This document shows positions 22,517 through 42,106 of a DNA stretch of 53,129 nt, piece by piece. Every line of letters begins with the position of its first letter. The stretch's first letter is position 1. The notes under the pieces were generated by a model. That model was not told the origin of the DNA. It saw only the letters and a list, made by a program, of their open reading frames with translations, and made no database searches. The translations under genes and the position numbers were made by a program. Source of the DNA: Porogramme epimiltina (Eukaryota; Basidiomycota; Agaricomycetes; Polyporales; Polyporaceae); contig FTLJ01001024.1 in assembly GCA_900155495.1 (NCBI GenBank), forward strand, positions 1-53,129. Reading direction: 5' to 3'.

Positions 22517-23213
22517 ATGCAGTTCATCACTCTTGCTACCATTCTCATGTCTATTGCCGTCGTGCAGGGTATCGTCATTGACACCCCGTACGTGGCATCT
22601 CCCACCTCTGTCTCAATTGGTACTCACGGCGACTCATTGAATACACTAGGCCCTCCCCTGTTCAATGCACCGACACTGAGGTCGATTGGCAGGGTGGTGT
22701 TGGTAAGCTTTACACCCATCGTTCCAGCTTCCCCAGGGTTGACATTTCCTCCTAGCTCCTTTCACTCTGGTAGGCGTCGGAACCTTCATAAATATCTTAG
22801 AGGTCGCTCACTCACTCTAATAAACGCATCTTATGGATTTTATAGAAGTAAGCATGCATTATTCGGTATCACACTACAACGAGGTTTATAACATCACTCT
22901 ACAGGATCTTTGAGACCGCCACCTCTGGCCTTACTTTCCCGGACATCGAGGGGCAGAGCTTCGTGTGGAACACCGACTTCCCTGCAGGTATGTTCGGCAG
23001 GATTTATCTGACAGTACACGTGACAGTATACTCAAGTTGTTGCCTGCAGGCACCTCCGCCTTCGCGGAGGTCATTGATAGTGCTGGGGACTCGGCCTCTA
23101 CCGTGCACTTCGTCATCCAGCCCAGCTGTACGTCCCGCCCCCCCACGCGTTACTAAATTATATCTGACGTTCTTCGCATCTATGTGTACACAGCGGATAG
23201 CTCCTGCCTTTAG
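22517..23213 (+). CDS. P1: small secreted Kre9/Knh1-type Ig-like protein
   Basis: Seven exons (22517-22587, 22650-22702, 22756-22769, 22846-22847, 22905-22987, 23050-23127, 23194-23213) total 321 nt, 106 residues. Signal peptide MQFITLATILMSIAVVQG, then VIDTP, QCTPTEVDWQGGV, APFTL, then a W-N-T-D segment and DSAGDSASTVHFVIQ, ending SSDSSCL. The pattern (W-x-G-G, an aromatic residue before T-D-x-P-x-G-T, then D-S-x-G) is that of the Ser/Thr-rich GPI-anchored Kre9/Knh1-like domain, but here with no stalk or anchor. The mature protein has two cysteines (QC and SC), well placed to tie the two ends of the fold. Exon 4 would be just AA, completing a Lys codon with the next exon. The role is probably extracellular or in the cell wall; no function can be assigned. 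Confidence 0.85.
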
Positions 23214-24052
23214 GATGCAATTTTCAAGCCGCCATGTGCATAGCTGAATGCCTAGTTCCGCTCTCGTACATTTGCGGACTAGTTCCCCGGTCGCTGGCTC
23301 ATGCAAGGACACTCCTATGTATCTAGAATCTACGTCGTTGTGAATGTGATCTGGTCGTCGATGGTGACCCTATACTTACATTTGGGACCCAGTTTGAAAT
23401 CAAGCTTACGGCCTCCTACTGTTCAAAACGCAGGGTTTCGGGCATGAACCACATGCGCGTTCGGAAGCTCCCTGCGATGCCGATCACATTAACTTCTTGC
23501 AGCGTGTATCTGCTCAACAGCGTCACGCGGAATACACTACGGCACTTCAGAAGGTCCTCTACTGAATAATACCCGAATTTGTACCTCCTCTGTGAGACCG
23601 AAACTGTCGTCTGATCATTTTTCTAGTATTCTCCGTCTCTGCCGGCCTCGATTCTGACCCCTTATCCCTCCACTCACAGCGTCTGAAGCTGACCTCGAGG
23701 ACGGCAAACTTACGTCGCCATGGGAGAACCCTCCGGAGCGTAAAGTATGCGCAGCATTTGTTTGGAGTGTCGGATGTGCATGCCAATCGTGTGCGCGCAC
23801 ACACGGCCATAACGCGCAGTCGAAGTGAAATTCAGTTCACCGCTCTATTTCATTCGCTAGAATTCCGCAGAGAAAGGCCCTTTGCAGAGACACGCATCGC
23901 CGATAGCCATGCTCTGCTTGGCTTCCCGAGCCGCCAATACATAGCCATATATAAGGACTGGTCCCCTTTGGGGGGCCGTCAGCTCGCAGCGCACGCGTTC
24001 TACTTGCTCTTGAGCACTCCCCCTCAATCCCTGCATTGTTCGCTGCATTAGT
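23214..24052. other. Intergenic between P1 and P2
   Basis: Holds the 3' flank of P1 and the promoter of P2. No coding frame was supported. A TATATAAG box near the right end serves P2. Confidence 0.45.
23948..23955 (+). promoter_or_regulatory. TATA box of P2
   Basis: TATATAAG, 105 bp upstream of the ATG at 24053. Confidence 0.55.
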
Positions 24053-24759
24053 ATGAAGCTTGGGACCTCTTTCGTAGCCTGGGCCTTCTTTGGAGCTATT
24101 TTCGCGGCCGGTCAAGAGGTCTTTGAGATTGACACTCCGTACGTGATACTATCATCGTGTATCTTCGATATTCGCTCAGTGTCGGCATGGACCACAACTT
24201 AGACCCCCGCCTCCTCAATGTGTTCCTACTACCATTCATTGGGAAGGAGGTGTCGGTGAGCCATGTGGATGATCATATTTTATGAAAGACTAATGCGTAA
24301 CTTCCATGACAGCACCATTTTCTCTGGTAACGATAACGAAAGTTTCGGCCACCATCTCTCCTATTGACGAGCACTGTCACATCCCCTTAATAAATTATAG
24401 ACGTAAGTTCTATATTGAATTCACGGCCCATTACTAGGAGCTCATTATTGTTAATGCAGCTTCTTCAAGAATTTAGAACCCACAGAGGAGTTCACTGGGA
24501 TAGAAGGGCAGATCTTTATCTGGGCCACAGACTTCCCGGCCGGTATGCCGTCTTTAGTATCAGATTGCTAGTCAAAATTCCGCCTTACGCATTGCTAGGG
24601 AGCACCGCTTCTATTGAGATCGAAGACAGCACTGGCGCCACCGCTTTTACGGCCTTCTTTGAGATCGTGAATAGCAGTACGCCCCGTCTTCCGACACATC
24701 CCATAGACCGTCACTAACCGTATGGCGTGGTGCACAAAGCGGACAGCAGCTGCCTTTAG
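24053..24759 (+). CDS. P2: small secreted Kre9/Knh1-type Ig-like protein
   Basis: Seven exons (24053-24138, 24203-24255, 24313-24326, 24401-24402, 24460-24542, 24599-24676, 24740-24759) total 336 nt, 111 residues. Exons 2 to 7 have exactly the lengths of P1 (53, 14, 2, 83, 78, 20). The protein reads MKLGTSFVAWAFFGAIFAAG (signal peptide), FEIDTP, QCVPTTIHWEGGV, APFSL, then FIWATDFPAGSTASIEIED, ending STDSSCL. Two cysteines as in P1. Exon 4 (AC) completes a Thr codon. Skipping it shifts the frame, and retaining the intron before it also leads to an early stop. P1 and P2 are a direct tandem pair about 0.8 kb apart and clearly arose by local duplication. Confidence 0.85.
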
Positions 24760-25753
24760 GGTATCCCACTACACCCGGATTATCAAACCGGTTCCTACGC
24801 CGTAGCTTCTGAGATTTCCTTGGCTCGGGACCCGTGTCGCTGGTTTCGTCTGTACTGTTCAATGTTCCGTATGAATGGCGCTCGCTCAGGTAGCGCTTTG
24901 TATCCAACGAGCCACTGCTCCGACCCCACTTTCCGGAGACCAGGTGCGCCAGTGAATCAGCGCCGACGCTGTGCTTCCCAAAACGCCGGGCTCGCTGCGC
25001 GTCCACCGAGCGCGGGCGCGGTGTGGTTTGAATACAACAGCGCCGCTTTGGCGCCTTGGAAGACGCTTACGGGCATCTTTGCCCGTACTGTGTCCGTGCA
25101 TCTGTCCCCAGCAGCGCGATGGCTAGATAGGATTGCGGCCTGTTGCGGCGCGCCTCCTATAGGGTCTGCGGACGTTCCGGAGATCGCTCACCTGTCGAAG
25201 ACAGGCTTGGAATTCATCGTCGAGCGACCATGTTACCAAGTGTCCTGTCCGTGATATCAAAGGTTATGTGCGCGTTGGAACTGAGGCCGTCTACGGGCGT
25301 CGGGCGGTGCCGATTAAGAAGAGGTCCCATCTTGAGCACACCAATATTGATACGATATTCTCTCCCCAGATGGGTTCCAAGCCGACGGATCATTTATGTT
25401 ACCAACACAGTAGTCATTCATCTCTCCGGGCTAACGTGGGCCCCAAAGCTTACCGTCTCGGAGTCGCTGGCGGTGGCTAGAACGGACAGAGAAGGTCGAG
25501 TCGAGCACCAGCCCGGCCGATGTTGATATCTCTCGCTCCGCGGGACACGGACCCCGGGTAAACGGATGAACTAGCACCCGGCGTGGCGCCCATCGTCGGG
25601 GCGCGCGGGGCGGGGCCACACGTGATCGTGACTGGTGCGGCGGGCGTCGCGTGCGGTGCGATCGGCATCAAGCGTCGACTTTGCGTCCTTCTCCACCGCC
25701 CTGCCCGCCGTCCTCGCCGTCGGCCGCCCCCTCGTCATCGTGCGCCGCCCACC
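24760..25753. other. Intergenic between P2 and the PH-domain gene
   Basis: Overlapping frames on both strands (144 codons on plus, 119 on minus) have no recognised domain. The last part is the promoter of the gene at 25754. Confidence 0.4.
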
Positions 25754-28700
25754 ATGGCAGCCGACGACAAGTCGCTCAAGATCGCCTGCCGGCTCGGTGC
25801 GTCCTATTCTCGTCCCCGCCTGATGGCGCCCATCTAATCAATTTCGGCAGTGTGCACCGACCAATGGCTCCTCACACACGTCGACCCCACCTGGACCGTC
25901 GTCCAGCTCAAACAGTTCCTCCTCACCAAGTTCTTCGCCGACCCGGACGCAGTGGAAGACCCCCGCGCCATCCCTGTTTCCCCCCGCAAGGCTCGTCGCC
26001 GCTCTTTGTCCCCCATCACCTTCGCCGCTCCACCCCCTCGCAAGCCCCAGGTAGCATCCGCCTCCAGCTCGGACGAGGAGTCCGCATTCACCGACCTCTC
26101 TGCCGACGTAGATGGCGAAGACGATGTCAACATCACCCAGCTGTTTACCGACGCACACAGGTACAAGTACAATGCTCGCCCGTCCACATCCTCAGCCTCC
26201 GACTCCGTCTCCCGGCTTCTCTCCACCTCCGAAGCGGCACAGGAACCGCACGCCTACGTTCTGATCTCCTTCTCGACGACGCAGATCCTGGAAGATCGGT
26301 TCTCCCTCTCGTGGTACACCATTAGCCCAAATGAGCTTCTAGAGCTCCACCCCGCCTCGATGTCGTTCGCAAGCCTCACAAGATGCTCTCTAGACGCATA
26401 TATCATCCCCTACTTCTCCGCACGCGTTTGGGGGCTCCGCGTCGTCCCCAGCAAGATCGACGCTTCTCGAGCGTTTGGCAAGAGCCGGAGAGGGGAAGAA
26501 GACACCCCCGGGGAGGCGAGGGCATCAGGGACGAGGGAGAAGGGGAAGAGGAAGGTCACGATGGAATGGAAGGAACGATGGGCAGTCATCCACCAGGGTG
26601 TTCTCTCGCTCTGCAAGGACCGTCATGTGAGTGCAACCTTCTGCCTTCATTCTGTGAGAACGAGATCGGGGACTTGGCTTCAAGTATGTCTGGTTTGGGC
26701 TGGACACGAGGCGTGGATAACGCGTGCCGCCCGGCGAAGCTCTCTATTCAGCGATCGAGTACAAGGCACACTCATCCATCGTGCATCACGGCGCTGGGGG
26801 ATGTTGTTGTTCCCTTTCTGTTGACCCTCATGGCGAAGGAAATGGCCAGCAGCGAGTTGCCTGGGGGGTCCGTGCCCCCAACTTGTTGCGAGTTTTCTCC
26901 AGAGACATGGAGAGCCGGTCCATGACCCATAGCGCCATGTTACGAGCGCGTCGGGGGCCAGGCGTGTCCTCCTTGCCGCCAGGCTCGGACAAGATCGCGC
27001 CCAGGCACAAGGAGAGGAGCTCATTTGGGTATCAATGTTCACTTGACTTCCTATCTGCGTTCCCGCCGGAATACAGGCGCATATAAGCAAACAGTGTTCG
27101 TGATACTTACCTGCTCGCTCAACAGGATGCACATCCCACCTTCACCATGCCTCTCTCCGCCCTTCAATCCATACGAGATAGCTCCCAGCTCAACCTTCCC
27201 CTCCACGGTCGGCGTCTTAGACAGAAGTCGTCTTCGAGCCCTTCGAACATTATCTCCCTCAAGTTCAAGGGCGCACCCCGTGCCCGCAACGGCAAAACCG
27301 CGGAAGACCCGTCCACCTCCATCTTCGAACGCCAGGCATCAGATAACTACGCGTCCCCAACCCCATCGCCACCAAATTCAGCCCAGGGAGGATGGTGGCG
27401 CCGAGGTTCAAGAGACGTCTCCGCCTCGCTTAGTATGGGCTTAACTTCAAGCGCAAGCGTGCTCGTCGGTGCAGGGAATGGGGCTGGATTTGCTGAAGTG
27501 TGGGACGCTTTTGCGCGGCGGGGAAGTCGAGCAGGAACAGAAGATTCGGACGAAGAGGGGCGGGCGGTGAGGGACAAGGGCAAGGACAGGGCGCGCGAAG
27601 AGGAGACGGTATTGGTCGTTCTCGACATGCTCGACACATCTGGTGAGCTTTCTATGGCGTCGTTGCCGGTCTTCTCCTGATGCCGAACACTGGAAGCATG
27701 CTCGAACATCCTACGCGTCCTCCACCGTCATGCCCCGTCAACGTGCCACTCAACCTTCCTCCCGTCTCGCACCCCCTCATACTCTCCTGCTCCTTCCCCA
27801 ATCATCTTCAGCTCTCGAGCCTCGACTCCAGCGGTGTCAGGAACCCCGCCTTCTGGTCCTCCATCAAGCTACACCTTCCCTCCGCCATCTTCATCTTCGC
27901 ATTCATTGGATTTACCGTCTTCATCACATTCGTCAACCGCTATTGCGACATTAAACGATACACGACCATCCACGCCCGTCCTCCCCGGTCCTTCAGCCTC
28001 CATCGGTGTACCATACCCGGCCTGGCGCCTCAATGTAGTCCGGACGGCGCGGCGCGCGGGGCTTGGTGCAGTAGGCCGCGCCATGGAACTAGTCATGTTT
28101 GGCGACGAGGACGACGACGCCGACATCGAGGATGCCGACGAAGATGATGAACTGGCTATCGAGTGGGCACGTCGAAATAGCAGCCTGGATCCCTCGCCCA
28201 TCGAACCCCCGCCAACGTCGTCGACATTCCCTTTGATGACCCCGCGCGCCCCCGAAAAGAGCCTTTTACCTCTTTTCACGACACCTTACGATAGCACGAT
28301 GACACCGATAACGACACCGACGACGACAGACGAGCCGCAAGACACGCCAAGCGAGCGCCCCAGGCCAGTCCGCCGTCCATCTCACCCCCTTGTGGACCTC
28401 TCCTCGGAGATTTTACCCTACCCTGAGGACTCCGACAAGAGTGAAGCGGAATGGGACAACTGGCTGGACGCTGTTGTGGTCCAGCGTGAGCAAGAGGCTC
28501 TCCTCAACCAGGTTCGCGCCCAACGCGCCGCTCTCGCTCGATCGGAGACCATGGAGACGGCCGTCCCTGACTCTAGTACACTGCCCATGTGGAGCTCCGG
28601 GTGGTCCATGCAGTTTGGGGGCTCTAAGGGCTCACTGAACTCGGACAGGGATCACGATCGCTCACACTCCCATCCCGGCGTGTGGCCCACACGCCGCGAC

Positions 28701-29603
28701 AGCGACGGCGAGACGTCGTCTGCGCACAGCTCGGACGCAGCGAACGCGCTCCCCGCGCGCCGCACCGCGTCCGGACCTGCTGCGAGCACCAGCTCGCGCG
28801 GACGCACCACCCACGGGCACGGACACCACCACGGCCGAACGCTGTCCACCTACTCTTCAGTCGATTCACTCCTCCGGCGCACGATGCGCACGAACATGCA
28901 AGGCATCGGGAACACGTCTCGGCAGGCGTCGATCCACGCGCTCTTCCCCTCCGCGTCCGCGTCCGAGGTCAACCTCGCCTCGTCCCCGTCTCCGTCTACG
29001 AGCAGCCCCGGGGGCGCGGCCGCGCGCTCGTCGCCCTCGCCGCCTCCGCACCTCTCGCGCCCGTCGATAGGGAGCATGCGCAGCGCGGGCTCTGCGGGCG
29101 CTCGCGCGCGCCCGTTGTCGCCGTTGTCGACGCAGCTGCGCGATGCGCGCGCGGAGGACTATGGATACGGCGGTGGCGATTACGACGAAGACGACAATGG
29201 CGGGGCGGAGGACGACGCGGACGTGGACGTAGACGACGTTGAAGAGGACGACGGGGAGGGCGGGGCGGGGTATACGGAGAGCGAGCTGGGGCACGGGCTC
29301 GCGCTTGGCGGGGCGCATCCGATCCCGCTTCCCGGGATGTCGATGGTGCCTGCGGGGTACACGACGTTCCAGCACTCGGCGCTATACGGCGGTGGGCCTG
29401 GGAGTGGGGGCCCAGGAAAGAGGGGGTCCATCGTGGGCGGAACGCGCAAGACGCGCAAGAGCGAGGAGATGCACGCGGGCGTGGCGCATGGGCAGTCGAT
29501 GCAGCGTCTGCCGATGGGTATGTCAGGCATGATGTCGACGGTGAGCAGCACGGTCAGCGTGGGTACGAATACGAGTGGATCGCGGCGTGGCGGCACGCGG
29601 TGA
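25754..29603 (+). CDS. Large PH-domain-like, Ser-rich cytoplasmic protein
   Basis: Four exons (25754-25796, 25851-26626, 27126-27642, 27697-29603) sum to 1080 residues in frame. The ATG sits in ACCATGGC. Residues about 8-60 (LKIACRL, then DPTWTVVQLKQFLLTKFF) look like a ubiquitin-like or Ras-binding fold. A pleckstrin-homology-like segment follows at about 250-320 (KRKVTMEWKERWAVIHQG, VLSLCKD, then DAHPTFTMPLSALQSI). The rest is long, Ser/Pro-rich and low in structure, with acidic runs (FGDEDDDADIEDADEDDE) and a Gly/Asp-rich end. PH domains usually bind phosphoinositides or proteins at membranes; a scaffold or polarity role is a guess. The second intron (26627-27125, 499 bp) is about nine times the local norm and splits the PH segment. 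No signal peptide. Confidence 0.8.
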
Positions 29604-30109
29604 GTGGTGGAATACTGGGCGCGTAGGCGTCCGTCAACAGTCTGTAGTAGTAATGCTGGTAATCACGGTAGAGGGCGACGCCCTCGTAAGCACTGCTGTA
29701 ATAGTGTATCCATGTCGCTGGCTCGTTCATCTCTGTGCAGTGTACTGTAGTAATCACATCATCTTGGAAGACTGGACCCGGCATGGCTGAGCAATGTCGT
29801 TCTGAGTTACATCGAAGAAAGCTCTCCGCAACTTTATAAAGCATCCAGGGACGATGTGACAGTACTCCACAGAAGGGGTTTCCAACTACTTACCGATGGG
29901 TTACTTTGTCTACTCTAGCACTCAGGTTGCTAACGCAAGACCTTCACGCGCTTTTCCTCCCTTTCTTATCTCTCAGCTGTTTTGCTCACTCCGAGCACTT
30001 TGATCGAAGTATGCTTGATTGCCATATACATTCCCTACACGTTCCATTTACATAGTGTAGTTCATTCGCCTACGTACGCTTCGATATCAATACAGCTACT
30101 TTCCTCACT
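29604..30109. other. 3' flanks of the PH gene and P3
   Basis: Convergent 3' region. From about 29760 it is similar to the stretch from about 37470, the left end of a duplicated block that also contains P3 and P4. No separate gene seen. Confidence 0.4.
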
Positions 30110-30866
30110 CTAATCACACGCTAAGACGAGTTTGCGGTCTATCCCCAGCGTCATTGCGCAACCCGGATAATGCGTCGAATGCAGGCAGCTTGTATCCACT
30201 ATGTAAGGCGATCAGTTGGGTCTTCTGTTCATGATATAAAGAGTGGACATACAGCTCGCCGACACGTTGAACGGTGCACTCCGAACTATAGAGTCGGTAC
30301 TATCCTCCAGTGTGAGTTCGACATCAGAGTCTTGCGGAGGCGAGATTCAGTCAGCGGTGATTGCGTAGATAGCTCGTAGCTTAGTATTACCTCCCAGAAC
30401 ATTCGTCGCCCATACGAAGCGTTCCTTCGATGTAGTAATGATCTCTTCCCTACGTTCGGGGACAGAGATTCTATAAAATGTGGTCAGCATCTCATGAAGA
30501 ATATGGGAAAGCGCAAAAACCAGGATCTTACGTCTGTCCAAGACATTTCGTAATGAAAAAGAGTGGTGTTGAAGGATAATCAGTTAGAGTAGGGGAGACA
30601 GTTGAGACTCGACATTATTACCAAGGTATAGGGGGCTGAGAGAACATCATGTAAGCCACGCACGGAACAAGGGCTAACTGTAGTGGCACTCACGAACGCC
30701 GCCTGTCCAAATAATCTCAGTTGGGGCGCACTGAGTAGCCGACACCCTGCAGGAATAAACATAATCAGCGGCCGCATAATCTACTGCTAAATAGCACTTA
30801 CGGCGTGTCGATGACGAGGGGCTCTGCTGCCAAAGCAGCAGCCATGAGAACAACCATGGGCTGCAT
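30110..30866 (-). CDS. P3: small secreted Ig-like protein with extended C-terminus
   Basis: Seven exons (30866-30802, 30746-30694, 30635-30622, 30533-30532, 30470-30391, 30330-30253, 30198-30110) total 381 nt, 126 residues. Signal MQPMVVLMAAALAA, LVIDTP, QCAPTEIIWTGGV, PPYTLTISVPER, FVWATNVLGG, DSIVRSAPFNV, then LDTSCL. This is the copy closest to the textbook W-T-G-G-V-P-P-Y-T-L form. Exon 4 is AC. Where P1, P2 and P4 stop right after S-C-L, P3 reads on for about 20 residues and gains two more cysteines. Sister of P4 by segmental duplication. Confidence 0.82.
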
Positions 30867-30939
30867 CGCGAGGATTGAGTGGAGAGGGGGTGGGTCAGTG
30901 GGCCGATGTGCAGCCTGCGATCTGTGGGCAGTCACGATC

Positions 30940-30952
30940 CTTGCGCCTTATA
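30940..30952 (-). promoter_or_regulatory. TATA box of P3 with shared flank
   Basis: TATAAGGCGCAAG on the minus strand, 74 bp before the ATG. The identical 13-mer lies at the same spacing before P4. Confidence 0.6.
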
Positions 30953-32611
30953 AGCGTCCTATCCGCTTCTCGCTCGCATGCCGCGACCGCCGCAGTAGAT
31001 GATCACACGTATCATCGGATACAATGATACTACCTCAACTTGAACTCTGTTGAATGAGTCATGTTCGGCATACAGTTACGGCAATGCAGAGCGCGTTCAC
31101 TAAACCTATGCGAGTGGTGATTGTATGGGCGTCGTATCCACAAAGATCGAGCGTAGGTCTGTGAGCTGGATCACTGAGTAAATGCAATATTAATTGGAGT
31201 GGGGTCACGCAAAGGCGAGTCATGATACCCACACAGATACAGCTATTTATAGTGCTGTCAGCTCCTGGATCCGAAGAGGAGGGCAAACATGCGTCAATTC
31301 GTGTCGAAGACCGCGCCTCTCAAGGACAGATGGACGCCGAGAGACAGCGATTATATGAAAGCACGCGCACCGTATTAGCGCATCTAGGTTGAATTAGGCT
31401 GTGGATGTGCGCGTACAGGTAGCAACCGCGATACCTCAGGCCTCAAGCTTCGAAGTATGAGTTATTCGGCTATATGCAGATCGCTATAGCATTTACGGAG
31501 AGTTCGTATGAGAGCGTTAGATGGTGAGCGGAGGGCCTGGAGCATACAATAAAAACTTGGACAGAAAGGAAAAGTCCGAGTCGGTGCTGTGAAGAGTGAC
31601 GTCACCATAAACATCCCCCACGATCACGTGGATAGGTCTAGGTCTCAACGTTCAACCGGCCCCTAGGTCCAGACCCTCGCCATCTGGAACGACGTGATTT
31701 TCATGCTTTCAGAATGTCCTTCACGTCCCTCTGGACCCGCTTGGCAACTGCTAGTCGTAGACATGCTCCCCTCAATCGACTGCTATACTCTGTCCTCGTC
31801 ACTACGTGACGCTCGCTTAGCTCATGAATGCCCGCCATATTTCAGTGAAGCTATGGAGGACGAAGGGCTAATCAGAACGTCGAATGGTGCGTATGTGTCT
31901 TTTCGCTTTCTCAGGCTGTCGTCGTATACACGTCTGGAATCATCGTGAACAAGCACTCTGTTCATGGGGTGGTCTCTGCTTCTAAACTACTGGTATGGTC
32001 GCGGCTCGCCCTCTCAATATACAGTGGCTGATTCACCTCTTGCAGTTGTGAAATTCTTGTCGGACTGTGTACGCATCAGGGTTCTGGGAGTGCAATTTCA
32101 CTCATTTCTCAGTATTATCGCACCTAATCTTGTGAAGAGATGAACCACTCAGACGTCACGAGCGCATCTACTTCAAGATACCGCAGCACCGTTCAATCGC
32201 CTTGAATCGCCTGCCAGCGGGTACGGACATACGCGTTGTCCTCGAACGGTGTGGCTACCTATGGTTGCGGGACGACACTCCTTCGGCGAGGCTATACCAG
32301 AGGATTTTACCATTCGAATGAGGAGTCTCCCCAGCACAGAGAAGTCGTTTTCTAGTCGTGTTATGCTAATTATTTCTTCCGGTGGCTATGATAGGAAGCT
32401 AGGAGCCTTGGACCTAGCAAATGTCGCGCGACTCTGACCCCACCAAGCATTGCGCTCATCATCGCGGGTGATAAATGCTCTTGGATAATCTTTATTAGGG
32501 CTCTCCCCTGCAGACAATCTTCCATAGTACGACGCTACATTCCATGCAGAGCATCGATAGCGTCATCGAATTGGAGCAAATTTTCAAAACATTCTACTAT
32601 CAATATACAGA
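30953..32611. other. Intergenic with gene remnants
   Basis: The left part is the duplicated upstream flank of P3, with a TGACGTCA palindrome near 31600 that is also present upstream of P4. From 31694 to about 32440 short frames such as an 84-codon piece (WQLLVVDMLPSIDCYTLSSS) and LNRLPAGTDIRVVLERCGYLWL look protein-like but are broken by stops, which suggests an old pseudogene of unknown type on the plus strand. Confidence 0.3.
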
Positions 32612-34274
32612 TCAAGGGTAGAATATGGAGAGGTAGGGAGGAGGCAGCGTGACTGAGGTCGTATCCGAGTCGCTCCTTTCTGGTTCTTCATCCTCTCCTG
32701 GTCTACCTCCCGCGATAGTAACCCCCCCATCCACCTCATACCTCACGCCCCTTCTACCAGGAATGCTGGAGGGGGAAATCCCGCAAACTCTGGAATCTGC
32801 CGCGGGAGCAATCACGTTTGTTTCCTCGAATCCGTCAAGGACACTCCTTCTCCCTTCAATCGGCTCTTCACCTCGGACAAAGACTTGCTCTGTGCGGGGA
32901 TCTTGGGAGACGGGAAGGAGACCACGTTGGATTTTCTCCAGTGCAGTTGTCTGACTCTTCAATACAACCTGAGAAGTGTTTACTTCCGCCAGCGAGCCTT
33001 GTAATTCCTCCACGTTTTGAATTGGCCTTTGCAGTACCTGATCGCTAATATGAGGAGGAGTACGAATATGTACTAGTTTTCCAGGGCCGTGATGAGCCGA
33101 TGGGAGACCGCTCCCCTCTTCTGAAAAGACACAGGGGTGTGACCATCAGTTATGACCCTAGGCTAGTATACACCCTCCGTTCCTGCGTACCATCAGCCAG
33201 AACTGCACTTTCGGCTATGTGCCTTTCACTTTGACGGGACATCGCTGCGAAGTACGATTAACTCGCGTCGACTACCCTTACCGGGACTGTCACAGAGATA
33301 CTTGCGCTGTACTATCAGACGTGATTTGTTCCTTTGCAACGCAGCCCTTCTGAATAAGTAGAGAAGAATGCCTGCCACAACGAGACTAGCTACTGAGCAC
33401 ACCACGACCCCTATTGTGGCTCCCTTAGAGAGATTTTGGCGGTGGGGGGTACTGCCGCCAGCTGCTTGTGTATTTGTAAATGCCTTCGAGGAAGACAGCA
33501 CTGTAAAGAAACTTGTGGATTGCGACGGAGTCTCACTCAATGGCATGGTAGAGTGACTTGATGTGTCTATAGAAGATGATGTTGCAAGACTGGATTTAGA
33601 GCTAGATCCCACGGAAAGGTTGAGATGCTAGATACGAAGCGAAGTGCGAGGAACATCGCATACCTTGAGGAAGGATTTGCAGATGTGCTGAAGCCACTTG
33701 TCCCCTGGGTCGGTGATAATGTGCTAGGGGCGGGGGGGACAGGGATACTTGGTCGAATCTGGGTCTTCGAAGATGAGGGCCTTGGAGTTGTGGTCCCAAT
33801 GCTGAAATTGACAAGACCCAGGGTTACTCCACCGTTGACGACGGTGAGAGTATGTAAAGAATTTTCCAGGCCGGAAGTGCTAAACAAGACCACTTCCAAA
33901 GAAGGCATCGTTGTGGGCATATTGGTATTGATTGAGGGTTCGCCGCTATCAAGGATGTAGGTTGAGCCTTCGTTTATTTGTTCTTGGTTTCTTAGCTGTC
34001 CTCCCCATACTTCGAGAGATACTCCTGCAAGCAGGCGTGTCAGCGGAGTAGCATAGAAAGGGGTGATATGAATGGTGCCTTGAAAAGCAAATGTTGCACT
34101 GTCACCAATGGTTTCCGATACTATACAACTTCCCGAGACATCCCAATGCCCGTTGATCACCAGTCCGGTTTTCGACCGGCTCGGGACGGCTCTTTTATTG
34201 CTTGGGGGAGGGCTAAGCGTGCACAGGCTGAACTCCACAGACGCTTGCCTCTTCTCAGGCGTATCAAAATGCAT
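32612..34274 (-). CDS. TM-C: single-pass membrane protein, jelly-roll-like ectodomain, PPPY tail
   Basis: At least three exons: about 34274-33664, about 33603-33275, and a tail exon from about 33120 to the stop at 32612. The outer part (GHWDVSG, SATFAFQGTIHI, YILDSGEP, then SLHTLTVVNGG) follows the beta-rich pattern of basidiomycete jelly-roll surface proteins. A Ser/Thr/Pro-rich stalk follows, then one membrane helix (ATIGVVVCSVASLVVAGILLY) with FRRAALQRNKSR as stop-transfer. The cytoplasmic tail has a coiled-coil-like stretch (VEELQGSLAEVNTSQVVLKS), then RYEVDGGVTIAGG and finally VTLPPPYLSIFYP. The N-terminus is unsure: 34274 is the nearest in-frame ATG, but no signal peptide follows it, so an upstream exon may be missing. 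Confidence 0.7.
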
Positions 34275-36322
34275 GAGCACTTCTGTAAACTGGTTTGGGA
34301 GCTAGGTGAAGGGGCTGAAACTTCTCTAGAGATTTTTCGTTGTAGAATGTATGGAGAGATAAAGTAGCTTGAGAGTTTAGCGCTTAGAGAAGTGCTGCTC
34401 TTTGTAGGGCCCCATAGTATATGCGACAAGGTTTTTTGTCGACTGATGTTCGGCGTCCCTGGTAGCGCTGCAACCTTGGGAAATTATCTTTTGTCAGCAT
34501 GATTATTCAACTCGATATCGCGTGCGATACGGGCTCTATAGTGTCTTTATCTCCTTCGACGCAGTATCATACCGTCGTAAAACAACACTGCGATCTGAAC
34601 TCTATGCGTGGTAGTGCTATCCAAGAGCAGAGACATCTCTACCGATGTCTTTGGGCCCCAAATATGTACGTCAACACACTATTCATGAATGATTTGAGAT
34701 GAACCTCCAGGAAGAAGTGAAAACATCAAATTGCTTGAAGAACACTTCCAATGCCATACAGCTTGGTACGAACAAGAGAAATGATAAACCCATCTTTGTC
34801 GAAAAATATCTACGCCACTGCGCTAGCACCGCGCACGTTGTAGAAAAGCTAGCTATAGAAGCATATGCACAGCGTCGAGGTCAACCCTGGCAACTGTGGC
34901 GACGGTGCCGACGAAATCTATGCGTCCCAAGCGTTCTGATCGGGGTTGCGTGCTACGTCGTCCAGCGAAGCTGTGCTAGAACGGAGGCGAACTTACCGAG
35001 AGTGATACATCTCGGCCTTCCAGGAGGAAACCAGAAAGTAGTATCCCAAAAAGCCACAAGGGTGGCGAGGCAGCCTGTGAACAGAAAAGACGTATGCGAG
35101 CGAGCAACGTGGAAGATGCACCTTCTATTGTTGCTATTGTTCGAAGCATGCGCGATCTTGCGACCGTGACACAGCCGAGGAAGATAAATGGATGGAATGT
35201 AGAATTTGGTAGCCACGGCTACCACAGATACCAGCGTTGCCATCGTCGCAGGTACCACGACGCACCAAACGAGGGCTCTAGGGGCGATAAGGGAGCCGTC
35301 CATTTGAAGGGATCTTGGCGACACGTTGGCAGCGAGCGGGGCGAAGGGTTTCCGGAGAGTGAGCCTAAGATGCAACCAGTGCGGTGCCGCACTTCCCGAG
35401 AGTGATAAATTGTGAATAGAAGGTGGATGGCATCCGACTCAGAGCTTGTGGGAGTGATAAAGAAGATGGCTTTCACGATGCCCTCTACGATCGCGAAACG
35501 AGCATAAGACGGCTACAGAAGTTGGAATAGCATTGTGGGCGCACCTGGGAGGCATTAGAGGGCGGTTGGAGATGTTCTTGGTTGCGACTCGCCGGAGACA
35601 GATGTGAGCCCATGGAGGAGTCGATCGCAGCGTTCCCTGTCAGTGTCGGATACGAAAAGCCCTCGCGGCCTAGAACATGACTAGGTGCACTATTAATGAC
35701 GACCTTACGGTCCACTGCCTCAGGATTTGCTACCAGTCGAGATTACATAATCCTCGCTCGTCAGCCAGAGTGACGTCATATTGGATTAGTAAGCCTAAGC
35801 GCCCACTAGCCCCCTGGCGCGGCGACTCGGATACTCTACACGCCATACACGGAACCACGAGCATGATCAAGTGAGTTTTCCATCGTGTTCGTCCCATCTT
35901 ACAGGAGCAGTGTCGTACATACCCGTGTCGAAGCCCCAGTACTGCCTCCACATTCGGCACGCAGAAATGGCATCCGATCAGGGCGGGAGGGGGGCTCGAA
36001 GTCATTGCAATTGCGTCCGAGATCCTTCTTGTAGTCTAGAATGTGCGCATTTGTTCTATTATACAGTTTTTCACCTCTTTACCGCTTCTAACGGAGCTCT
36101 TCAATTGCAGAATCACATCATTTCAACGTTATACGACTGCGACCCATCATGAATCTGTCAACACGCAGGCCCGAAGACGTATTTCTACCATTCCGTCGTG
36201 CCTAGCCGTACACAAGGCATTGACACCGCCGTCGCGCCGTGAGCGGCCCACCGCGGTGGCGCGTCCTTCAAATACGACCATCTTCGTAACCTCTCCGTCG
36301 CGGTATCGCACGCATCCTAGCC
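34275..36322. other. Intergenic with a hydrophobic reading frame
   Basis: A minus-strand frame from an ATG at 35303 to about 34956 starts with a hydrophobic segment (LVWCVVVPATMATLVSVVAVA) and contains a second one (FLFTGCLATLVAFW). It may be a small membrane protein or a fragment, but no family was recognised and splice limits are unclear. The rest shows nothing firm. Confidence 0.25.
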
Positions 36323-37208
36323 ATGGTAGGACGCGTCCCAGATTGCGTCCCCGACGCATCTACGATCTGTATCCCAGCCCGCTCGTCGGAAATCCAGTAC
36401 GGGCCTACCGGCGCACAAGCATGGGAATTTTCAGGCTCCATCCAGGACCCCGCTGGCACGGAGCAGCCCATTGTAGAAACGCATGCTCAGGGCGCAACTG
36501 CGCAACTCTCATTTAACGGTGCGTTGGCGTCCCATCTTCACTCTCTTCCCCGCTCACTGTTGAACTTGATTTTTCCTCGCAGGGACCTCCATCGCCGTCT
36601 TTGGCTCCCAGTTGCACCACGATAAGGACTCTGGCGGCGTCTCCTACGCAGTCGACAGCGGCCCGCCGACGACAAACGCGACACTCGAACTCCAAACGTC
36701 ACCGACGATATTCCAATTCCCGCTTTTTGACGCGAATGGCCTCTCGGATGGAACGCATACGCTCAAAATCACCAACATTGGATCAACTTTCATCCTCACC
36801 TACTTCAAGGTCGGGAAGGTTGACGTCATGGAGACCACCACTCTCAGCATCCCAATAGGCACCACGTCCAGCGCTCAATCGCTGAGCTTGTTGACGCCGG
36901 GGAACCGGACGACGGCTACTATTCCCCCAGCGTCGAGCGCAATCATCACCACGGAAACACCGACCACGATCGTGAAAACCGCTTCCATATCCTCCTCACC
37001 CTCGTCGACCTCGTCCACTGCATCCTCCTCATCGCTGTCGACTTCGTCCACGCAGTCCGCTAGCGTCACCACGTCGAGCGTCACCACCTCCGCCACGGGC
37101 GCCGCCTCGACGGGATCTGCTGCTCGTGCACGAACGGGCTTCTCGTTGCGCACGGTGGGCGTGATCGCGTTTGGGGCGTGGCTCGTCTTGGGCGGGCTCG
37201 CCCTCTAA
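36323..37208 (+). CDS. GPI-anchored jelly-roll-type surface protein
   Basis: Two exons (36323-36518 and 36583-37208) give 273 residues. The body (QYGPTGAQAWEFSGS, ATAQLSFNGTSIAVFGSQ, SYAVDSGPP, then GLSDGTHTLKITNIGS) is the beta-rich domain common in basidiomycete cell-surface proteins. It is followed by a long Ser/Thr stretch (about 150-235) and a C-terminal hydrophobic segment FSLRTVGVIAFGAWLVLGGL with no cytoplasmic tail, as in a GPI-anchor signal. A single-pass protein without a tail is the alternative. No signal peptide follows this ATG (MVGRVPDCVPD), so a short upstream exon may carry it. It sits between TM-C and P4. Confidence 0.72.
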
Positions 37209-37640
37209 GCTCGGCTCCGAGGGGTGTTACACGATCATCTCTAACACATACTATTAGTAAAAACCCTCCGTCTGATCACGTTGAAGCGAGCTACATGAGC
37301 CCGTATACGCAGCGAAGATTCGTCTGTTCCTCTACGAGCACAAAGTCTATGTATTACATATTCAATACATCGTAATTGTGCGGCAATGTCGGCTTCAACG
37401 GAAGGTCTGGGGAGCGCACAGCCGAGACGCGTTGTCTAGTGGGTAGTACGTAGCTCTGGAAGAAGCTGGACCATCTTGTAGGACGGGATCAGGCATGGCT
37501 AATAAGTGTTGTCCTGATTGGCACGAAAGGGTTTCGTAGCTGAGTTCGGTTTACAAAGATTCCAAGGACGATATAGAGACATCCCTACACGAATATAAAC
37601 CTCTTAACGTACATGACATTGCTCATGTGAGATTGCAAGA
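37209..37640. other. 3' flanks of the GPI protein and P4
   Basis: Convergent 3' region. From about 37470 it resembles the sequence downstream of P3 (from about 29760). A short piece at 37398-37445 also resembles 40648-40692. No gene seen. Confidence 0.4.
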
Positions 37641-38348
37641 CTACAGACAGCTTGTATCCGCTATGCAACGCCATCAGCTTGGTTCTCTGCTAATGACACG
37701 AAGGAGTGCACGTACAGCTCTCTAGCACCTGGAACGGCGCACTCTGAGCTACAGCGCCGTCATTGTCCACGAGTTTAAGCTGGGCCTGGGAGTCTGCGGA
37801 GGCAGAGTTGGGTAAGCAGAGATCGTGTGGAAAATGTGCAGCGCGGTCGTACTGCCTAAGACATCCGTCGCCCATACAAAGCTATCTCCCGTTAAACCGT
37901 CGAAGACTTCGTCCGCGTGTTCGGTGTCAAAGATACTGTAAGTTACGTTCAGCCCGTGTTTTGTAACACCGCCTAGTTTAAACGTGGAGGTCTTACGTCT
38001 GTCAGAAGAGTCCCCAGGGAGACGGGTCAGTGAAGCATGTTCGGTAAAAGTAAGGGAGAATAGTGTAAATTGAACGTCATTACCAAGGTAAAGGGAGCTG
38101 AGCAGCGAGTTAGTGACAAATGGGACGAGCACTGACTGTAGCTGTACTCACCGACACCGCCACTCCAGAGAAGCTCAGTAGGAACGCATTGAGTAGCCGA
38201 AACCCTGTGTTCACGAGCATGGTCAACGATTATCGGATCAACGGTGTAGTGGGGGCTCGCACGGCGTATCGATGACAAGAGGCTCCACCGCATAGGCGGC
38301 GGAGACCATCAGAGCACCCACCGCGGCGAAGGACAAGATGAGCTGCAT
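37641..38348 (-). CDS. P4: small secreted Kre9/Knh1-type Ig-like protein
   Basis: Seven exons (38348-38263, 38204-38152, 38097-38084, 37998-37997, 37935-37853, 37793-37716, 37660-37641) total 336 nt, 111 residues, the same length as P2. Signal MQLILSFAAVGALMVSAAYA, LVIDTP, QCVPTELLWSGGV, PFTLTIFD, FVWATDVLG, DNDGAVAQSAPFQVL, ending SSDTSCL. Exon 4 is AC and makes Thr with the next base. Two conserved cysteines in the mature protein. Close sister of P3: signal region, introns, promoter and distant flanks all align. Confidence 0.85.
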
Positions 38349-38423
38349 GGTTATGGTCGATATGGGAGGTGGTGGGTGAGTGGAGCGAAGGGTGGCCTGC
38401 GATATTTGGGTACTGTCGCGCGT

Positions 38424-38436
38424 CTTGCGCCTTATA
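38424..38436 (-). promoter_or_regulatory. TATA box of P4 with shared flank
   Basis: TATAAGGCGCAAG on the minus strand, 76 bp before the ATG at 38348; the same 13-mer as before P3. Confidence 0.6.
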
Positions 38437-39645
38437 TGCGATCTACGCGTCCGCATGCCGCAGTAGATCATGCATGCTCCATCGGATACAACGGCGCCTG
38501 AAGAAGCGTCCGGTAGTAATGATACCTGGATTTCACTGAATGAGCGGTGTTCGGCGTGTGCAATTCACAGTGCGCAACATGCTCATTTAGGGTGAAAGAG
38601 TACCGGTTATAGACTTCCTAAGTCGGACCTGGCCATGTTCTCGACGAATTTCGTCGCCATAGGGGCACGAGTACAACAGCGCTGGTATGTACCATGATTT
38701 CCGAGCGTTCTACTATGAGTTAAATCAGTTCGTTAGTGAGGGATGCGATCGGCAACATTGAGAAGGCTCACACAAAGGCGAATGATACCCGCGAAGACGT
38801 AGCCATTGTGCCGTCAGCCTCTCAAGTCGAAGAGAAAGGCATGCACGTTTCAATTCCCCGAAGGCGCCTGTTGAAGACAGATGACCTCCATGAGGTGACA
38901 GTTCCCAGACGATATGAAAGGACACGTACGGCAACGATGCATAAAATTGGGACAGGCTGTGTACGCGCAGGCGCAACTAAGTAGTAACTGCCACACTCTG
39001 AGTGTTGGGCCACCTAGGCATAAGGTGCTTCGACAAATGCGTTATGGACTAGGCCCAATGTGTATGCCGGAGGGTTTACTTGTGTATGGCCCATAGTTCA
39101 CGCACATCATTCGCGAGAGGAATTGCAGTACAAGTAGGAGTAGAGGCTTGCCAAGGTATGTGTCACGTCCTGAGCGAGCAAATTGTTGATAGCATTTAAG
39201 AGATAAATTGACAGTCCAGTGTGACGCAAGATGAGGTGACCTATTGAATGAGACGGAAGGGCGCTGGATAGTGAGCGGGCTGTCTGGAGTATTGGCATGG
39301 TAGACTTGTTGAAATTTGAGTTCGACCAGAATGACGTCACCATGGCTTGTTCACACAGTCACGTGTCAGAGTCTAGACTCTCACAGCCGTCTCAGCTGAA
39401 GCTGCTACTACTTACTACACATGTCATCTCCAACGGAAACTGCAGGTACTTAGAAGGCCTCTATGCTCATATTCTGTAAGTGAGTGGCGTAGGCCAAGGG
39501 ATGGCATAAGCTGACTCGTCTTTCTCCAGCCCTGCTTGTTGTCGGTCGAAAATGTTACAAGTATAATAACATGATCGTCATGCATTCGCCAAATGGGTAG
39601 TATTGGTACTACACGTCGCATCCCATTAAGAACAGGCTTCCACTC
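38437..39645. other. Upstream flank of P4 and 3' flank of P5
   Basis: To about 39390 this aligns with the upstream flank of P3, including a TGACGTCA palindrome near 39331. Frames here are short and overlap on both strands; none is supported. Confidence 0.45.
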
Positions 39646-40413
39646 CTACGGGTTCTCCACCGAACAGCTGTCGTTGCCTGCGTAGAGCCGAGTTAGCATG
39701 TGCGCCCGCCACCGCATAGACGACTAAGCTCCGATGGAGTACGCACCTTCGCCCACAACGATCGGGGCAGTCGAAGCCGTCTGACCGGAGGCATCCGTAA
39801 TAACTATCTGGAGCACGGTTCCTGCAGGAGGGGGACGGGGTGAGTCATTCGCATCGATCCGCTACTGAAACGCTGACACGCACCGCGGCGCACGTCGGTG
39901 GCCCAGTCGATGTGATGCCCCGTCAGTCCTAAGAATTCCGTGAATCCGGGCTGGCCGTCTTCAATGGTCCTGTTCGAACACACCGGTGAGCCTGATACAA
40001 GTTTCAACCCCCCCTTGAGGTGCTTACGTCTTCGACGTATCGATTTCGCGCAGTGGGCGCGTATTGAGTGATGCAGCTCATTTAGGATTCTAGAGTACTC
40101 CTCACCAAGTTGAAACGCGCTAGAGTGCGCCTCGTTAGTAAGAATTCCCTCCATCGTGACAACGAAGCTGAAAGCACTCACGTTCTCCTCCATGCCACTG
40201 AATGAGAGTAGGCACGCATTGCTCGACGTCCGCACTGCTCCAGGGATAGTGTTCCCGTGGAATGGTTAGCGACTTCTATCAAGTGCCGGTGCTTAGAGGT
40301 GGAACGCACGGCGTGTCGACAGTGAGGGGAGTTACGGTCGCGACAGGGCTGGCAAGAGCCCCTCCAGCAAACGCAGCGGCGAGGAGGGTGACGGCGACCT
40401 TCGTGAATATCAT
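39646..40413 (-). CDS. P5: small secreted Kre9/Knh1-type Ig-like protein
   Basis: Seven exons (40413-40310, 40234-40182, 40119-40106, 40029-40028, 39969-39884, 39821-39747, 39677-39646) total 366 nt, 121 residues. Signal MIFTKVAVTLLAAAFAGGALA, LTVDTP, QCVPTLIQWHGGE, PRFNLTTIED, IDWATDVRRG, TDASGQTASTAPIVV, ending GNDSCSVENP. Exon 4 is AC. The core exon lengths 53, 14 and 2 match P1-P4, while the later ones differ by multiples of three. The tail runs four residues past the closing cysteine-serine. Domain and two-cysteine pattern are as in the other copies, but sequence divergence is larger. Confidence 0.82.
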
Positions 40414-41408
40414 GATCGTATTGAAGGGTGGTAGAGGAGGGAAAGGAAAACAGAGATGTCGGAGGAGGGTGGATGTCCGCCCAAATCGAACATTTCAAAC
40501 GTTCATTTTATACGTACGTCGGCCCCGGGTCTCCTCGCGCGCCACGCCCGTCGCTCACGCGCTGATGCGCACCCCTCCCTTGACAGGCTGCGGTGCGACG
40601 TAGGACGAGAGACATACGCGCCTCTGGATTCTATCCAGTGCGCTTCGACGGCCGGTCTGGGAAGCGCGCGGCCAGGACATGCCGTCTATTGGATATGCAA
40701 CTTTGAATAGAGGCCGAAAGAAGTCATCAGTGAATACAAAGTTTAGACAAATGTCTGGGAACGTACACTGCTCTGGAGAGCTCGAGGGACGTAAAACGTG
40801 CGCGACCTTTCGAGATGATCGGCTTTATGATCCTTGCCCTGCTCAAGTCAGTTATTTATAGGACAACCGGCGATTACTTCGGGGGCCTGTGCCAAGTACG
40901 AGGTGCATCGCGGGTATCGATGCCCATGTGTGCTTTGACGATGGATTCGATCACGATATAATGAGTATTATGTACTTCCGAACATGGGACCACGTATGGA
41001 ACGTATACGAGTTCTCCGGATGGGCCAACCACGGCCAACAAACTCGCGTATGCGTAAATCGCCCCATTGTCCCACCAGCAGCGTCTTGCACGTGCTCCGG
41101 CCTCTCTTACGCATGGCCGCACAGACTGCGCGGTATCACCTCCAGTCATCGATCCATCCCAGGCGAGGTTTCCTATGATACACGAGGCTGGACGCCTCCT
41201 AGTCGTACACCGGGCCTGGCCTGCTATATGACCGCTCGCCGCACAGCGTGGGGTGCCGCTGCAGGCGCCCTAACCACCGCCCTGCAGTCCACCCACCACA
41301 TATCCGTATCCTGGCATCCCGGGCTCTCCGCGACGTAGCACCGGCACTACAGGGCCAATCCTGCCTGCTGGATGAGAAGCGACGTGCTCCCTGTCTTCGC
41401 CATGAGAA
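40414..41408. other. Intergenic between P5 and P6
   Basis: Contains the P5 promoter, with TATAAAA (minus strand) at 40506-40512, 93 bp before its ATG. The plus-strand frame at 40889-41338 has no recognised domain. Confidence 0.4.
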
Positions 41409-42106
41409 TCACCACAGGCAGATGTCGCCTGCATGTCGAAAGGTTACTACCGCCCACCAGTACGAGGTAGATATGGGGAGTACGCACGGCCGGACTGCAC
41501 AGTGATGGGCGCACTCTGCGCTAAGGCGCCTGCCCCGTCAGAGATCGAAAGCGCTAACGCGGTGTCTGCGCGTCGGGAGATGAGGTGAGTCAGTGACGTC
41601 ATCGGGTATAAGCGAGACGGGGAGGAAGAGGATGCGCCGCACCTTCTGGGACACGGGCAAGCCATTTGAAGGCGAACGTGCCTTGGGAGAACTCAAATGC
41701 GTCGACAAGGCTTTGATCGGATATGCTGTGTATGCTGTAAGAGCACGAGAGCCGATGTCAAGAAGGTGGCTTGAGAGAAGGGATTTAAGCACACCTCTGA
41801 ATGGCCAGGTGGGCAATTTCGTGGTCGCGTGAGCTGATGTGGATTCAAACGTTCGGTGCAGAGCTCACCAGGGTGACTGGAGCTAAACAGATGCCATTAT
41901 CAGAGCTAAATTGGCGAAAAAAGGGGCGGAGGAAGACGCACGGGTACAGCCAGTCCATGACAGCTCCGTGAAAGCGCACTGTCCAGGCGGTTTTCTGGCC
42001 TGCCATTCAGTCTCGCCGCAGCACCCCTCGAGCGCAAGACCACCTACGGCGTATGTATGACGCAACTCGCGATGAGCAGCGGGATGGCAGAGCCTCGAGG
42101 AACCAT
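41409..42106 (-). CDS. P6: divergent small secreted Ig-like protein
   Basis: Seven exons (42106-42048, 41994-41942, 41882-41869, 41796-41795, 41734-41643, 41565-41488, 41428-41409) total 318 nt, 105 residues. The N-terminus MVPRGSAIPLLIASC is short and weakly hydrophobic. Then VIHTP (His where the others have Asp), QCAFTELSWTGCTPP (Cys replacing the second Gly of W-x-G-G), VTLSIHSISD, FAFKWLARVPED, SISDGAGALAQSAPITV, ending GRDICLW. Exon 4 is AG and makes Ser. Exon lengths 53, 14, 2, 78 and 20 match P1, P2 and P4 exactly, so the model is sound even though the protein has changed at conserved points. It may be diverging in function or starting to decay. Confidence 0.75.

Follow-up and report, generated by a model that had tools for sequence, protein, structure and literature searches.

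We describe a family of small genes in the basidiomycete Porogramme epimiltina in which the third and fourth introns appear to be separated by an exon of only two nucleotides. Six of these genes (P1–P6) lie in contig FTLJ01001024.1, which was analyzed over its whole length of 53,129 nucleotides (hereafter the window; contig C758 of a genome of 41.9 Mb in 926 contigs), and a seventh was found on another contig, C99. In all seven genes introns 3 and 4 are predicted to lie two nucleotides apart, and it is highly probable (about 0.92 in our estimate) that these two nucleotides are a constitutive exon which provides two positions of a codon. All gene models and splice junctions reported here were predicted from the DNA sequence. 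An initial annotation of the window had proposed the short exon in P1–P6, and all six were recovered at the positions then given within complete models of seven exons and six GT-AG introns each.

Two of the genes are read from the forward strand and four from the reverse one. P1 (22517–23213, forward strand; exons 22517–22587, 22650–22702, 22756–22769, 22846–22847, 22905–22987, 23050–23127 and 23194–23213; 106 amino acids, aa) carries the short exon AA at 22846–22847, and the first base of exon 5 completes it to the codon AAG (Lys). In P2 (24053–24759, forward strand; exons 24053–24138, 24203–24255, 24313–24326, 24401–24402, 24460–24542, 24599–24676 and 24740–24759; 111 aa) the exon is AC, at 24401–24402, and the codon ACC (Thr). 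P3 (30110–30866, reverse strand; exons 30866–30802, 30746–30694, 30635–30622, 30533–30532, 30470–30391, 30330–30253 and 30198–30110; 126 aa, with an uncertain C-terminal end) has AC at 30532–30533 and the codon ACA (Thr), and P4 (37641–38348, reverse strand; exons 38348–38263, 38204–38152, 38097–38084, 37998–37997, 37935–37853, 37793–37716 and 37660–37641; 111 aa) has AC at 37997–37998 and the codon ACT (Thr). AC is found again at 40028–40029 in P5 (39646–40413, reverse strand; exons 40413–40310, 40234–40182, 40119–40106, 40029–40028, 39969–39884, 39821–39747 and 39677–39646; 121 aa), with the codon ACG (Thr). Finally, P6 (41409–42106, reverse strand; exons 42106–42048, 41994–41942, 41882–41869, 41796–41795, 41734–41643, 41565–41488 and 41428–41409; 105 aa) has AG at 41795–41796 and the codon AGC (Ser). 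This gene has the shortest first exon (59 nt) and may be decaying.

The regularity of these models is considerable. Exon 4, which separates introns 3 and 4, has a length of exactly 2 nt in the six genes, is preceded by AG and followed by GT in every case, and supplies codon positions 1 and 2. Exons 2 and 3 are constantly of 53 and 14 nt, exon 5 is of 80–92 nt and exon 6 of 75–78 nt, in agreement with the initial annotation; the range of about 57–88 bp given there for the flanking introns also fits the measured lengths, 72–88 nt for intron 3 and 57–61 nt for intron 4. The coding sums are multiples of three in all six genes, as had been proposed: directly in P1, P2, P4 and P5, in P3 only if the last exon is extended to the next in-frame stop, and in P6 only with the end of exon 6 at 41488 and a last exon at 41428–41409. 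The protein motif expected at the site, x-L followed by T/S/K and then by I/F/T, reads L-K-I, L-T-F, L-T-I, L-T-I, L-T-T and L-S-I in P1 to P6, and omission of the short exon leads to loss of frame and a premature stop in each of them and likewise in the seventh gene.

The predicted products are small (105 to 126 aa) and have an N-terminal stretch that resembles a signal peptide. Aligned over their whole length, the spliced proteins share 30 to 46% identity with P1, the invariant positions being T-P, Q-C, W, G, the L that precedes the residue encoded by the short exon, a second W and two D. The P1, P2 and P4 proteins stop directly after SCL, P5 and P6 end a few residues past the matching cysteine, and P3 extends 24 residues beyond SCL, a caveat on its model.

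The strongest support for the two-nucleotide exon, and an independent one, is that given by 12 relatives within this genome in which the coding sequence runs through this site without a break; they can be used as length markers. Eleven of them (one each on contigs C293 and C552, two each on C458 and C76, four on C604, and the one at 44917–45186 of the window) were aligned with the seven genes, and the stretch around L-x-I is gap-free in all 18 rows. The twelfth, on C459, has its introns elsewhere and reads APYYLSLIPG unbroken at the site. In all 12, exactly one residue separates L or V from the next position, occupied by A in the second C76 relative (C76b) and by I, L or V in the other eleven. 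Exactly this one residue is obtained when the two nucleotides are joined to the first base of exon 5. The relative within the window (44917–45186, reverse strand), a further member of the family, reads PPYQLQI straight through and is part of a far longer open frame (657 aa). On C604, the four uninterrupted members are clustered between 21508 and 41251 together with a weaker fifth one, which suggests a local expansion elsewhere in the genome. Weak matches were kept out of the length markers (C604:21508, four on C677, two on C59, C295, C552:51306 and 57969, C869 and C455): the landmark pattern did not match the C604:21508 locus (L055), no confident alignment at the site was obtained for the C295 locus, for one of those on C59 or for the two further ones on C552, and three of the C677 loci gave local alignments only.

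The interval between exons 3 and 5 of the seven genes was then scanned for AG-Nn-GT with n from 0 to 30, both introns being required to have at least 45 nt. An exon size of two is the only one with a site in all seven genes; the next best, n = 6, has a site in three and would not restore the frame. In 2000 shuffles that preserve dinucleotide composition, n = 2 reached a maximum of five genes, once, and never six; when consensus sites were required, the same shuffles reached at most two. Each of the four other readings (exon skipped, intron 3 kept, intron 4 kept, both kept) meets an in-frame stop in all seven genes. When intron 3 is removed and intron 4 is kept, the short exon runs directly into TAA in 6/7 genes, so half-spliced messages would be truncated. 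Both strands of the window were also scanned for a 14-nt exon of the right type with a 2-nt exon behind it. Five sites came out, all of them among the six already described, P5 being missed because its acceptor is AAG. A pattern search over the whole genome gave 3821 forward and 3666 reverse matches and was not specific enough.

The seventh gene was found by a search of the genome with a query composed by ourselves. It has eight exons, of which exon 2 is of 53 nt and exon 3 of 14 nt; they are followed by the short exon CA (bases 668–669 of L046), placed between introns of 67 and 52 nt, and by exon 5. The predicted product is complete (204 aa), with a Ser/Thr-rich tail and a hydrophobic end. 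Because this gene shares the two-nucleotide exon from another contig, the architecture is not limited to the local cluster. Introns are GT-AG throughout and exon phases are equal in the seven genes, with intron 3 measuring 67–88 nt and intron 4 52–61 nt. Four marks of an ultra-short constitutive micro-exon are found together here: an exon of 1–5 nt between AG and GT, neighbouring introns of ordinary size, the need of the exon for the frame and the length of the uninterrupted relatives. That the two-nucleotide exon is kept across the family, as the initial annotation had it, is supported by these relatives, by the exon-size scan with its shuffles, by the stops in the four other readings and by the gene on C99.

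The product of the C99 gene has its best database match in Lentinus tigrinus (87% identity over 56% of the query), and the other matches are mostly polypore or other basidiomycete proteins. Among the 42 database proteins that match it at an expect value (E) of 1e-6 or better, 22 carry the motif, three of which (P0007, P0009 and P0041) have a wrong downstream spacing; this leaves 19 with exactly one residue between L or V and the next hydrophobic residue and with normal spacing downstream. The other 23 have residues inserted, deleted or replaced at the junction of the short exon. In alignments to the C99 product a length change was counted at this junction in 22 of the 42, versus 7, 9, 0 and 9 at the other four junctions, an automated count in which P0032 is probably there through an alignment artefact and from which P0007 and P0041 are missing; at five exon-internal control positions, 1 to 3 of the 42 change length. 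Two very similar proteins of Trametes maxima and T. meyenii (P0006 and P0009) illustrate the difference, since one reads FFLAIKPGG and the other has six more residues at the point of the short exon. An annotated protein of Pyrrhoderma noxium (P0001) has extra residues exactly at this junction, which are probably translated intron. Judging from these protein sequences, it is probable that the two-nucleotide exon occurs widely in Agaricomycetes and is often annotated wrongly, as gene finders would fail on it; in the 19 intact relatives the exon may be present, or the introns may have been lost.

Marks of selection were also looked for. From P2 to P5 the short exon is always AC and the third base of the codon, beyond intron 4, is C, A, T and G, so that four synonymous Thr codons are formed. 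In the four gene pairs compared, the interiors of the introns show no clear excess of similarity over shuffled sequence (z from −0.6 to 1.9). The exons of P3/P4, the closest pair, do show one (z from 3.6 to 5.6). P0043, an unspliced frame from another source that covers the counterpart of P4, has residues identical to those of the window around the short exon (DRRKTSTF) and differs from it in 5 of 20 residues in intron 4 and in 1 of 28 in intron 3. P4 alone as a query retrieved three database proteins, P0043 and P0044, in which the unspliced intron is read, and P0045, a short frame around exon 6; a profile of the six window proteins found one. Annotated relatives of these compact proteins are thus nearly absent, and gene finders may be missing a whole subfamily.

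Three other explanations were weighed against inclusion of a two-nucleotide exon. If exons 3 and 5 were joined by one larger intron with other splice sites, a few residues would be added and AG-NN-GT would be accidental. Stop-free readings of this kind that keep the frame exist in P2 (one), P3 (two), P4 (one), P5 (two) and C99 (four), those of P3 and P4 including a donor 8 bases downstream that adds two residues. However, none exists in P1 and P6 (donors searched from −8 to +45 and acceptors from −45 to +9), eight of the ten depend on a GT or GC that is not the normal donor of intron 3, and inserts vary between genes from 2 to 14 residues, with no such insert seen in the 12 uninterrupted relatives. 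A single intron, which also leaves the recurrence of AG-NN-GT in the seven genes without explanation, is therefore considered very unlikely.

Slightly less credit still is given to the idea that the normal outcome is skipping of the exon or retention of an intron, with most of the transcript truncated and the site acting as an on/off switch or a decay signal. The early stop met by every product that lacks the exon or keeps an intron, in all seven genes, is what a regulated poison event would give, and P6 and P3 look partly degenerate, but exons 5 to 7 are conserved in the inclusion frame, and the presence of that frame in the 19 intact database relatives indicates that inclusion is productive at least part of the time. 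As for the genes being decaying copies whose frames agree by chance, the short first exon of P6 and the absence of the usual stop in P3 could be so read; the outcome of the shuffles, the complete open models of P1, P2, P4, P5 and C99 and the AC exon common to four synonymous Thr codons make this the most remote of the three, and we give it almost no weight.

Several observations nevertheless weigh against a constitutive two-nucleotide exon of common origin. The frame-keeping single-intron readings just mentioned occur in five of the seven genes, and two of the ten use the normal donor of intron 3. This intron is longer in P3 (88 nt) and P4 (85 nt) than any of the 28 other introns of the seven genes, which range from 49 to 77 nt. 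Its donor is weak in P2 (44th percentile among all of the window's GT sites) and its acceptor is weak in P5 (52nd percentile of all AG sites), and a YTNAY branch site was not found in intron 3 of P5 or in intron 4 of P4. P6 carries a second two-nucleotide reading (GT for AG) two bases downstream. The exons of the three more distant gene pairs are barely above shuffled DNA (z from −1.6 to 2.6), and conservation there therefore rests on protein alignment and splice sites. In the family tree the seven genes do not form one group, three label changes being needed, and 1 of 15 inner branches is well supported, so this tree does not show a single origin of the exon. In other species the exon is deduced from protein models only.

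With respect to the protein, alignments show an N-terminal domain, about 90 residues long, that is marked by C, W-x-G and L-x-I. The family is presumably that of the Ser-Thr-rich, glycosylphosphatidylinositol (GPI)-anchored-like secreted proteins of basidiomycetes, a name that comes from the source of P0011 and P0020. The Ser/Thr-rich tail and hydrophobic C-terminus of the C99 product are absent from P1–P6, the extension of P3 being no such tail, so the window genes would be tail-less relatives of that family. No Pfam family above the cut-off was found in the four of the six window proteins and the four relatives that were scanned, and none of the viral and prokaryote contigs searched yielded a relative. 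In the predicted structure of the relative P0002 the residue of the short exon is placed inside a strand (47–53); the ten-residue blocks from 21 to 110 have a mean predicted local distance difference test (pLDDT) score of 88 to 96, the tail is unordered and the mean of the whole model is 64.9. A fold search in the PDB gave weak matches, many of them to fibronectin-III-like or other beta domains, and no match reached an E of 0.001. The protein is probably small and secreted and, according to this model, the residue is likely located in the middle of a beta-strand; length errors there would therefore probably break the fold.

How could such an exon be spliced? Each of the two introns would be recognized by itself (intron definition), because both, at 52 to 88 nt, are near the ordinary size and have their own donor and acceptor. 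They would be removed one after the other, as the initial annotation had proposed and as their spacing suggests: the acceptor of intron 3 falls within the footprint of the donor of intron 4, two bases apart, and two spliceosomes together are unlikely. The downstream intron 4 would usually go first, since it is the shorter one in all seven genes and has the higher donor score in five of them (it ties in C99 and is lower in P6). This order is in line with a 9-nt exon of potato invertase, in which, as cited in PMC4674806, the downstream intron of the pair is removed first. The intron pair may predate the duplication of these genes, and may have been kept because any other splicing gives a truncated product. 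We would give even odds to a broader proposition, namely that the two-nucleotide exon is an ancient fixture of the secreted family across Agaricomycetes and perhaps other Basidiomycota, selected since before the family expanded, spliced in two obligatory steps and responsible for the errors that more than half of the annotated members show at this point.

Ultra-short exons are already known, and what is new here is a size of 2 nt kept across a multigene family. The initial annotation had presented the exon as unusual and without a known report for this family. That part stood, as no report of a two-nucleotide exon in this family or in basidiomycetes was found among the open-access matches listed; exons this small do have precedents. 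The closest is the CYP621A P450 of Fusarium (PMC12940212), with a 1-nt exon in 20 orthologous genes that RNA reads confirm in two species. Both cases concern fungal nuclear genes with two ordinary introns around an ultra-short exon needed for the frame, an intronless relative serves as length marker in both, and most annotated CYP621A models are wrong at the site. In contrast, the CYP621A exon is a single nucleotide, the central base of a codon, in orthologs of one gene across species, whereas the exon predicted here from sequence has 2 nt, provides codon positions 1 and 2 and is found in at least seven paralogs of one genome.

In plants, PMC4674806 and PMC8831610 describe single-nucleotide exons in APC11 and VPS55, studied with complementary DNA and reporter constructs. 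According to these papers they are also flanked by AG and GT, needed for the frame and missed by annotation; intronless APC11 homologs exist, VPS55 has a conserved GTRAGT donor, and an engineered TT exon in APC11 is included in Arabidopsis and mis-spliced in rice. They differ from the genes described here in being plant, low-copy genes with a 1-nt exon. The P450 micro-exons of Phanerochaete chrysosporium, a white-rot basidiomycete, are likewise short and accompanied by introns of 45–55 bp, but the shortest exon reported in PMC1184071 is of 6 bp. Stwintrons, as described in PMC6616335, resemble the present pair in that two introns, nested or adjacent, are excised in successive reactions, but leave no exonic letters between their parts. 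A stwintron was rejected here, as such a zero-length join amounts to skipping, which breaks the frame and gives a premature stop in all seven genes. Recursive splicing at a zero-length exon (AG/GT) was also discarded: a site with n = 0 and both halves of at least 45 nt exists in one of the seven genes only.

Exons with no room for any recognition sequence would demonstrate that introns by themselves can determine the choice of splice sites. They also defeat gene finders and short-read aligners, and recognition of two-nucleotide exons would correct many annotated proteins. At least seven such exons in one genome, beside relatives that lack them, would be natural replicates for the study of splicing order and fidelity.

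Two further observations concern other parts of the window. Similar coding stretches (EIPDFDF.GVRAA) are found on opposite strands at 4516–4626 (reverse) and 17144–17254 (forward), and suggest a duplicated gene. The translated matches of the regions at about 19.4–20.6 kb and 52.1–53.1 kb are parallel and almost identical and lie on opposite strands, as would result from an inverted duplication.

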